DNA of 64,000 nt from a virus. The stretch covers positions 1 to 64,000 of IMG/VR virus record IMGVR_UViG_3300035703_000008. The stretch is one strand, 5' to 3'. Of the stretch, positions 59,078-63,726 are shown piece after piece. The notes beneath the pieces are model-generated. The model made no database searches, had not been told where the DNA came from, and was given only the letters and a program-made list of their open reading frames with translations. Both the position numbers and the translations under genes were made by a program. Every line of letters begins with the position of its first letter. Within the stretch, counting starts at the first letter, position 1.

Positions 59078-59662
59078 ATGGAACTCATAAAAGTAAATCA
59101 AGACTTGATCGCCAAGTTTCCTTATCCTGGAGATGTGTATGATCTCTATGATTCTATCCGATCCAAGCTGGATGTGTTGTTTTCTCGTGGAAATCATTGG
59201 ATACGCATGGATGACGGGGTTTCTACCTACAAAGATCAAGAATTCCCCGAGCAAGGCACTGGACTGCATCACTGGCCTGAGTTGCGACCTTTCCTAGACT
59301 GTGTCTGGCCCAGTGTGAAAGAGTATGCCAGACTGGTGGACCTTGATCCTGAAAGATGTGAGATCCGTACCATGTGGGCCAACATATATCATCCCGGCGG
59401 TCGTGTCAATCGCCATCGGCATTTTTACACCGACAAACTGCCCACTTTCTCGTTGATATGCTATCTAGTAAGACCGCCTGAGTCAGGGAATCTGTTTGTC
59501 TCAGTGCCCGGGGAGGACGATGTCGTGGTCAAAGAGATCGACTATGCCGAGGGCGACATCGTGATTTTCCCCAGTCGCAGGCTGCACTGGAGCGGGCCAA
59601 ATCTCAGCGACCAAGATCGTGTGTTGATCGCATTTGACTGGTATCAGACACCGAGCGGTTGA
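59078..59662 (+). CDS. 2OG-Fe(II) oxygenase family protein
   Basis: 194 residues. MWANIYHPGGRVNRHRHFY has the first His ligands, SLICYLVRPPESGNLFV the conserved strand pair, and DIVIFPSRRLHWSGPNLSDQDRVLIAFDWY the distal His and Arg of the phage-type family (TIGR02466-like). Oxidises an unknown substrate. Followed immediately by the promoter of the structured RNA. Confidence 0.75.
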   Translation: MELIKVNQDLIAKFPYPGDVYDLYDSIRSKLDVLFSRGNHWIRMDDGVSTYKDQEFPEQGTGLHHWPELRPFLDCVWPSVKEYARLVDLDPERCEIRTMWANIYHPGGRVNRHRHFYTDKLPTFSLICYLVRPPESGNLFVSVPGEDDVVVKEIDYAEGDIVIFPSRRLHWSGPNLSDQDRVLIAFDWYQTPSG

Positions 59663-59687
59663 CCATTAAATAGCACGATGCTATACT
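59659..59687 (+). promoter_or_regulatory. Sigma70 promoter for the structured RNA
   Basis: TTGACC 59659-59664, 17-bp spacer, TATACT 59682-59687, in the GCGGTTGACC context shared with 30471 and 47043. Starts in the last codons of the oxygenase gene. Expected start about 59694. Confidence 0.8.
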
Positions 59688-59689
59688 AG

Positions 59690-60120
59690 TGGAACAGTAA
59701 GCAACACGCTCTTTAACAACTAGGAAAAGTATGTGGCCCAGAAGTTGGGCACCATATTGAAGCACATTACTCTCAGAGCACAGAGCATCCGCGGAGAGGA
59801 CCGATCACGTTCGGCTGCACGGTCGCCGACTCAGTAGTGTGTTTCAATATGGTGACACCATATCCAAACGCATTGAGATTCGGAGTGATCAACCGCGGCA
59901 ATGCAGACAACAGGAGATGAGCGGCCTGCCAGTGCGTTTGGATATGGTATCAAAAGGTCACAGCAGATGCAGGTATCGTGCGTGGACGCATGCACTATTC
60001 GGGCCCTCCCAGCCGGGGACGGGTCCTGAGACAACTGCGGGCTCGGCTACGGACCCTTTAGCGAGGGATTCCCAAATCGCCCCGATCTCTGCTGTGACCT
60101 TTTGGTATCATACTAGCCTC
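59690..60120 (+). ncRNA. Large structured non-coding RNA (novel or GOLLD/ROOL-like)
   Basis: About 430 nt without a convincing ORF, between a sigma70 promoter and tRNA-Tyr. Three long stems occur in series: 59750-59771 pairs with 59833-59854 (22 bp with G-U pairs), 59857-59875 with 59930-59948 (19 bp), and 59951-59967 with 60088-60104 (17 bp perfect, extendable to ~23 in competition with the second stem). A small hairpin (59736-59750) leads in, and the loops hold further GC helices such as GGGTCC/GGACCC at 60021-60056. Large ornate RNAs (GOLLD, ROOL) are known to lie by phage tRNA genes; identity cannot be decided here. Confidence 0.75.
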
Positions 60121-60129
60121 AAGATTTTT

Positions 60130-60212
60130 GGATGACGGGCGGCATTGGCGACCGCAGCGGACTGTAAATCCGTGCCTTCGGGAACGGGGTTCGAATCCCT
60201 GGTCATCCACCA
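60130..60212 (+). tRNA. tRNA-Tyr (GTA)
   Basis: 83 nt including encoded CCA. Acceptor GGATGAC/GTCATCC, anticodon loop ACTGTAAA with GTA, longer variable arm as expected for bacterial Tyr tRNA. Ten bases after the structured RNA; probably processed from one transcript. Confidence 0.95.
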
Positions 60213-60326
60213 AGATGCACAGCGTCGCTCTACGCTGTGGCAGGACGGCCTCTCGATGCTAGCCACGAAGCCTCTCAAACTGCGACTAGAGCTCTACTTG
60301 CAAGGTTGAGCATAGCACCATTTCAT
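60213..60326 (+). other. Inter-tRNA segment with hairpin
   Basis: 114 nt between tRNA-Tyr and tRNA-Glu without ORF. Starts with a perfect hairpin CACAGCGT/ACGCTGTG (60218-60239, six-base loop). The remainder has no assigned role; it may be a degenerate tRNA or a small stable RNA. Confidence 0.4.
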
Positions 60327-60401
60327 GCACCGTTCGTCTATCGGTTAGGACACATCCCTTTCACGGATGGAAGAGGAGTTCGATTCTCCTACGGTGTACC
60401 A
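60327..60401 (+). tRNA. tRNA-Glu (TTC)
   Basis: 75 nt including encoded CCA. Acceptor GCACCGT/ACGGTGT with a G-U end pair, anticodon loop CTTTCAC with TTC. Its acceptor 3' strand is repeated in the tRNA remnant at 60886. Confidence 0.95.
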
Positions 60402-60443: not shown

Positions 60444-60887
60444 ATGGCATTAGGAACTTGTAAAACCTGTAGTAAAGAGTTTAGATTCTTCGGAAGTCAA
60501 TCATCGGGTCAATTCTGTTCGAGAGAATGCACCCACGATTACAGAACTAAACTGATTATGGAAAGCGGTAAAGGTAATAAGACCAATGCTGCAACATATT
60601 TGCGAAGATTTGTAAAATACGAATGTTCTTATTGTGGAATCAGTAATTGGCAAGGAAAGCCAATCTCACTGCAAATCGATCACATAGACGGAAACAATAA
60701 AAATAATACAATCGAAAACATAAGATGGTTATGCCCAAATTGTCATAGTCAAACTCCAACTTGGGGATTTAAAAATGCTAGTGAATCCTCGAAACAGGCA
60801 AGCCAACAAGGAGCAAAAAAAGGCAACCAAAAAAATCATCTAAACAATAAATCTTGTCTATCGATAGCAGATTTAGAAAGGTTGTAA
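60444..60887 (+). CDS. HNH homing endonuclease in tRNA cluster
   Basis: 147 residues. Two zinc-finger-like pairs (CKTCSKEF and CSREC; CSYCG and CPNC) and the HNH core QIDHIDGNNKNNTIENIRW (His, Asn, and H in CPNCHSQ). AT-rich compared with the tRNA region. It follows tRNA-Glu and runs up to a 3' tRNA remnant, so it has inserted into a tandem tRNA array. A control hairpin precedes the ATG. Confidence 0.88.
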   Translation: MALGTCKTCSKEFRFFGSQSSGQFCSRECTHDYRTKLIMESGKGNKTNAATYLRRFVKYECSYCGISNWQGKPISLQIDHIDGNNKNNTIENIRWLCPNCHSQTPTWGFKNASESSKQASQQGAKKGNQKNHLNNKSCLSIADLERL

Positions 60888-63423: not shown

Positions 63424-63427
63424 AGAC

Positions 63428-63726
63428 GTGCTGTCTAATCAACAGCTAGTGTGGTCCGCATGTCGAGAAGTGGTGTGATAGCCACAGGACCTTACCATTT
63501 GGAGCAAATGGCGCTGGCAATGCGACAATCCTCCCTGGTCGGGAAGCGGGTGGAAGGCATGCGTGATGGGATTGAGACCGCTCGGTTCTTGATGTGCTAC
63601 AATTACCGCCGCAGGGGGGAAGCACCTGTTGTCATCAGTGAAGGCGTGAGCGAAAGTATGGCCATGCCCCAACTACCAGGGGAGAGCACCACCCCGAGCT
63701 TCTGCGACTCTGTTATAGAGCGGACC
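63428..63726 (+). ncRNA. Structured RNA candidate (alternatively an 89-residue ORF)
   Basis: Starts right after tRNA-Ser, in the same transcription unit. GGTCCGC (63453-63459) pairs with GCGGACC (63720-63726), closing a ~275-nt domain; inside are GTGG/CCAC and CCATTT/AAATGG hairpins. The same stretch is open in one frame (ATG 63460 to TGA 63729, 89 residues, MSRSGVIATGPYHLEQMALA...) but without a ribosome site. The two readings compete; structure plus position favours RNA slightly. Confidence 0.4.

Follow-up and report, generated by a model that had tools for sequence, protein, structure and literature searches.

The window analysed here, 64,000 nt long, covers positions 1-64000 of a virus record of 208,932 nt that encodes a T4-type DNA polymerase, the nearest cultured relatives of which are those of Sinorhizobium phage Phosso (50% protein identity) and Agrobacterium phage Atu_ph07 (46%). 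The record holds 13 tRNAs, and 10 of these lie within the window in an array ordered Tyr, Glu, Met, Gly, Asn, Trp, Cys, Arg, Gly and Ser. Upstream of the first, tRNA-Tyr (GTA; 60130-60212, plus strand), a promoter, a boxA-like element and three stem-framed RNA modules follow each other on the same strand. An earlier note on this DNA had described a structured RNA beside the tRNA cluster of a large phage, and this description was borne out. A search for close relatives of the upstream oxygenase gene returned none, and the polymerase was therefore used to reach related contigs: 80 polymerase relatives (81-89% identity) were collected, and the region was then compared with 48 of the contigs carrying them.

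Two further features lie within the array. An ORF resembling an HNH-type endonuclease (60444-60887, plus strand) separates tRNA-Glu from a repeated copy of the 3′ end of that tRNA (TTCGATTC..CCTACGGTGTACCA; the two copies lie near 60380 and 60900), an arrangement suggestive of homing-gene insertion at tRNA-Glu. Directly 3′ of tRNA-Ser, at 63424-63625 (plus strand), we found a second conserved RNA of approximately 200 nt, with homologues in more than 40 loci examined, some of them overlapping. Across 19 sequences, 96% of cells pair and both-side changes occur in 27 pairs; a Rfam search of 63424-63660 gave no match beyond tRNAs and chance hits. In many relatives this RNA is found just upstream of a module I hairpin.

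Promoter and boxA

A sigma70-type promoter, as the earlier note had proposed, is present at 59659-59687 (plus strand; TTGACC-N17-TATACT, with TG before the -10 hexamer). It scores 10/12 with an extended -10, is the only promoter-like site in 59500-60330 and is kept in the relative L096, as is a small leader hairpin at 59735-59750 (plus strand; GGCCCAGAAGTTGGGC). Approximately 21 nt after the -10 hexamer lies a boxA-like antitermination element, GCTCTTTAACAA (59708-59719, plus strand), a 12-mer identical to the boxA of the E. coli rrnB leader; the boxA sequence GCTCTTTAACA occurs once in the 209-kb record. This placement, directly behind the promoter in an operon without coding genes, is the one expected of an rrn-type antitermination unit. 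Among the loci examined, boxA was seen in 7 independent contigs (this one and 6 others) against about 1 expected by chance, and all 7 sites are on the sense strand and either adjoin a promoter or open a tRNA/cassette array; the other arrays start outside the DNA examined or lack boxA. The exact boxA plus leader 20-mer found no match among viral contigs, and a search of the open-access literature returned no paper on boxA in phage tRNA operons.

Elsewhere in the record, outside the window, a two-piece (permuted) tmRNA is predicted (68643-69014 of the record, equivalent to L268 4643-5014) with the tag ANDEVFALAA; similar predictions in L154 and L171 carry the tag ANDEQFALAA. Together with the E. 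coli-type boxA, the predicted tmRNA suggests a proteobacterial host. A further conserved non-coding stretch, with the core AAACGGGCGG..GTC..GGATGAA, occurs upstream of tRNA/cassette arrays in relatives (L096 3937-4046, L099 3156-3267, L097 3207-3272, L098 4822-4880 and L102 4245-4348) and was not seen in this window.

Three long stems

The 431 nt containing the modules fold at -179.7 kcal/mol (z = -6.9), with 0/100 shuffles as good, and modules I, II and III folded singly give z values of -5.3, -4.4 and -6.9, respectively. Each module is framed by one long stem. Stem I (59750-59771/59833-59854) spans 22 positions, 91% of them Watson-Crick, and is fully paired with 2 G-U; stem II (59853-59875/59930-59952) spans 23 positions (91%); stem III (59943-59967/60088-60112) spans 25 positions (92%), again fully paired with 2 G-U. 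The lengths of 22, 19 and 17-23 bp given in the earlier note are close to these values, and the three stems are real. Their uninterrupted lengths (22, 20 and 25 bp) make them the three longest in the 209-kb record on either strand, the next-longest being 18 bp including 4 G-U, and all three exceed the approximately 17 bp of uninterrupted duplex expected around an RNase III-processed RNA. In 179 relatives the stems measure 16-24 bp, 16 bp being the lower bound of the search. A protein-coding origin was rejected: there is no long conserved frame, and changes follow base pairing.

Stems II and III had been suggested to switch by way of a shared strand. In the minimum-energy fold both stems form side by side, and the sole contested base is 59948 (pairing probabilities 0.59 and 0.35). 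Furthermore, the relatives G022 and G020 lack module II: a hairpin standing where module I would be is followed there by module III. The switch proposal is thus not upheld.

Module III, a new pseudoknotted RNA

Module III (59943-60112, plus strand) is a new, structurally well-supported RNA class of approximately 155 nt, matched by our model R1 at 59947-60108 with 125 bits. A pattern derived from the module III core found 46 contigs, and the alignment contains 27 homologues. It reveals a five-helix structure in which 93.6% of cells are paired, compared with 72.2±0.9% in shuffled alignments; double-change cells number 266 (92±7 in shuffles), 35 of 47 pairs show compensatory change, and the covariation score is 0.573, against 0.184 when shuffled and at most 0.133 when slid. 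Unguided RNAalifold agrees, with compensatory change in 32/40 pairs. The framing helix P1 pairs 59948-59965 with 60090-60107 and is compensatory in all 18 of its pairs. It encloses the P2 hairpin (59978-59995; 7 bp, GACG loop), P3 (60001-60026) and the P4 hairpin (60051-60072), all on the plus strand. The loop of P3 (60012-60015, GCCG) forms a pseudoknot with 60044-60047 (CGGC). These strands can pair in 27/27 homologues, as GCCG/CGGC in 17 and GCGA/UCGC in 10, a count corrected for six rows in which the alignment places the downstream strand two columns off; since half of mismatched partners would also pair, the pseudoknot evidence is consistent and, taken alone, not decisive.

Exactly one copy of module III was found by model R1 in each of 24 of the 44 records searched, and in 17 of 28 loci it lies at most 20 nt from the upstream tRNA. 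Some of the very large relatives (343, 316, 400 and 353 kb) lack it, which indicates that the group can do without it. Searches outside the group were negative within their respective scopes. There was no match to model R1 in seven cultured phages including T4 (a set without a positive control); blastn of 50,697 phage records gave only short matches of weak significance for module III, as did a DNA search of cultured phages for the whole region and one cassette; and the module III pattern was absent from 84,980 bacterial and archaeal genomes. No match to Rfam above the gathering score was obtained for module III in the window or in four relatives, and the representative L107 yielded only chance hits at E≤10. 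The suggestion in the earlier note that this could be a new class therefore holds, given the covarying structure of module III and the lack of a Rfam match.

Modules I and II, a class of stem-framed cassettes

Module I (59750-59854, plus strand) consists of a 22-bp stem, CACCATATTGAAGCACATTACT / AGTAGTGTGTTTCAATATGGTG, around a 61-nt interior, and module II (59853-59952, plus strand) of the stem CACCATATCCAAACGCATT / AGTGCGTTTGGATATGGT around a 54-nt interior. Module II is a covarying paralogue of module I, a compensated variant within one window with three pairs changed on both sides. The 16-mer CATATTGAAGCACATT, which marks the class, occurs at at least 120 distinct sites, and 107 of the 120 among the matches listed have a pairing arm downstream, mostly AGTGTGTTTCAATATG. 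A scan of 692 same-strand tRNA gaps, made without using the CATATTGAAGCACATT sequence and accepting G-U pairs, found stems of at least 16 bp in 179 cases on the sense strand and 60 on the antisense strand, compared with 1 in shuffled sequence. In 107 of the 179 sense stems the tested stem part is free of the recruiting seeds, a few of these being the same hairpins trimmed at CCA; the contigs were chosen by those seeds, and the stem frequency is consequently not an unbiased estimate.

Across 147 stems that align to the consensus, 96.6% of cells pair, and there are 225 double changes compared with approximately 23 in shuffles. The earlier note had made its case depend on compensatory changes in homologues, and these are present both here and in stem III. 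The hairpins lie on the strand of the nearest tRNA in 93/95 cases which, together with the sense-only G-U pairs, shows that selection acts on RNA rather than DNA. At consensus stem position 16, a U.G wobble (T59767 with G59837 in module I) is kept in 105/147 stems even though a Watson-Crick pair would be possible, a hint that a protein or nuclease reads the stem.

The interiors are diverse, with 181 sequences falling into 121 clusters, 26 of them recurrent and 95 singletons. In one tRNA-like cassette (L096 4392-4485), framed by CCATAT..ATATGG, a T-arm, CTGGTTCGAATCCAG, continues without a break into an extended acceptor-like stem, TTAGAGCAC / GTGCTCTAA. Cultured phages seldom carry related stems: one each was found in Vibrio phage 2.275.O (L296 9697-9783) and Sinorhizobium phage Phosso (L293 7978-8073), close to tRNAs and carrying the same AAACACACT/AGTGTGTTT or GATGTGTTT/AAGCACATC motif.

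A comparison across relatives reveals that the modules are separable. In G004 the promoter and boxA are followed first by a module I-type hairpin with a different interior and by further RNA, and then by module I, tRNA-Tyr and module III; G031 contains the module I hairpin alone. In L250, an otherwise dissimilar contig, 59835-59949 recurs at 96.5% identity; the shared part runs from the end of a module I stem through the whole of module II, and the module I interior that precedes it in L250 is a different one, such that one exchange junction falls in the shared stem. The hairpins occurring apart or re-ordered in relatives, in addition to the L250 match, demonstrate that they are independent cassettes. 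Modules I and II thus belong to a set of cassettes that combine a common stem with many different interiors and can pass from phage to phage. The proposal of one large RNA of approximately 430 nt is contradicted by these arrangements, as the hairpins are separable, re-ordered or have a tRNA between them.

Discussion

We consider it fairly probable, taking the explanation as a whole, that a T4-like jumbo phage begins its stable-RNA (tRNA) operon here, that the operon resembles a ribosomal RNA operon in layout, and that host RNase III acts on the stems to free stable trans-acting RNAs. To judge from the sequence, the sigma70 promoter would start the transcript, and boxA would most likely recruit the host NusB-S10 antitermination complex, in which case the long untranslated transcript would be spared early Rho termination. 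As each module emerges, its two arms would zip into a stem of approximately 20 bp, which, judging by stem length, host RNase III could cut as it does rRNA leader-trailer helices. The cutting would fall to the host enzyme, given that a search of 24 phage records found no RNase III gene. The neighbouring tRNAs would be released by RNase P and 3′ nucleases, and the predicted products are three independent stable trans-acting phage RNAs, each framed by its own stem. Our leading guess is that the released RNAs help or protect phage translation and tRNAs. Several observations speak against this scheme. The 5′ arm often includes the tRNA CCA, and a cut inside the stem would therefore burden the tRNA with surplus bases to be trimmed; most module I/II interiors are singletons, module III is lacking in some relatives, and boxA was seen in 7 contigs only.

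A broader reading, to which we give somewhat less than even weight, is that of an RNA gene-cassette system in jumbo phages. The conserved stem of approximately 18 bp might serve as a processing and exchange frame for many unrelated small RNAs. These would be co-transcribed with the tRNAs, with antitermination of the ribosomal type, and would pass between phages as a pool of trans-acting RNAs, directed for instance at host defences that target RNA or translation. Module III would be one conserved member with its own pseudoknotted fold.

Among the alternatives, the stems could be spacers of the tRNA operon and nothing else, insulating, pacing or punctuating tRNA maturation around functionless interiors. 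The geometry of the module I/II class fits such a role, with 37 hairpins beginning at a tRNA CCA and 28/107 stems ending 0 nt from the first base of the next tRNA, and the preponderance of singleton interiors (95/121 clusters) means that some may indeed be passive filler. Module III is hard to accommodate, however, as its interior is far more conserved than its stem, in addition to being single-copy and pseudoknotted, and several module I/II interiors, GAACAGnCAAATGG for example, recur in 4-10 contigs while the stems around them differ. We regard a spacer role on its own as unlikely. The same grade applies to the modules being tRNA-like or structured decoys against RNA-cutting host defences, with the interiors as a repertoire against nucleases. 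An anti-defence role has been reported for phage tRNA loci, for example against Septu, which cuts tRNA-Tyr (PMC13096335), the interiors are diverse and exchangeable, and T-loop-like GTTCRAN motifs are enriched in them (15/147 compared with 2.7 expected). Most interiors nonetheless have no T-arm, and module III does not have a tRNA-like fold.

It is considerably less probable still that the modules act as DNA-level elements, either integron-like hairpin recombination sites or MITEs that move tRNA cassettes. Conserved inverted arms surround variable interiors in several copies per phage, and a cassette is 97% shared between unrelated surroundings with a junction in the stem. Homologous recombination between common stems accounts for that shared cassette, and no dedicated enzyme is required; moreover, the stems are mainly a property of the sense strand, retain the U.G at position 16 and nearly always share the strand of the tRNA, all of which are at odds with selection on DNA. 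A single ornate, GOLLD/ROOL-like RNA of approximately 430 nt with a II/III switch is scarcely credible since, even though the three stems adjoin one another, with II in contact with III, the modules come apart in relatives, a single base is contested and Rfam offers no match.

In addition to the structurally well-supported class represented by module III, a much larger set of stem-framed RNAs in jumbo phage tRNA arrays is described here, and mimicry of the ribosomal RNA operon is put forward as a concrete model of how such RNAs might be made and released. The long-standing question of the role of stable RNAs from phage tRNA regions becomes testable with a recognisable frame and a covariance model, and the candidate relatives in the cultured phages Phosso and 2.275.O could provide a bench system.

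Comparison with known systems

GOLLD and ROOL are large structured phage RNAs of unknown function, often found near tRNAs; they are single large RNAs that assemble into cages, many GOLLD exceeding 800 nt (PMC12286853). The modules share with them a structured phage RNA near tRNAs, and differ in being three separable units of approximately 100-170 nt. The likeness drawn in the earlier note did not survive comparison with the GOLLD and ROOL models, which gave no match in the window at the gathering score or in 59600-60250 at E≤10, where Rfam returned only the neighbouring tRNA and chance hits. The bacterial Y RNA YrlA, also known in phages, has an end-to-end stem, a variable interior and, in some cases, tRNA-like modules (PMC12282133). 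A stem formed from both ends, a variable interior and, in some members, tRNA-like modules are likewise seen here. The YrlA Rfam model had no hit in the window region, and its hits in relatives were below the gathering score and fell on ordinary tRNAs; a Ro/TROVE gene was present in 0/24 phage records, although the host may encode such a partner.

In setting, the nearest counterparts are T4 stable RNAs C and D (species 1 and 2), encoded in the tRNA region of T4 and of unknown role (PMC3014915). Here, too, small non-coding RNAs are arranged end-to-end with tRNAs in a T4-like phage, and RNA C ends in a T-arm-like sequence, as do some of the interiors. However, neither the scanned gaps between T4 tRNAs nor the folds of RNAs C and D contain a framing stem of at least 14 bp, and T4 contains no model R1 match, such that the RNAs are not homologous.

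The closest layout is that of the ribosomal RNA operons, where boxA suffices for formation of the antitermination complex, and where RNase III cuts the leader-trailer helices flanking the rRNAs, a helix of more than 17 bp being critical (PMC10250234). A promoter, an identical boxA 12-mer, RNAs framed by long helices and tRNAs within the unit are common to both. In contrast to the rrn operons, no boxB or boxC is shown here and, in place of rRNA, the helices frame small, new RNAs that can be exchanged. The analogy is close in layout, and by extension the phage locus may also function in the manner of an rrn operon.
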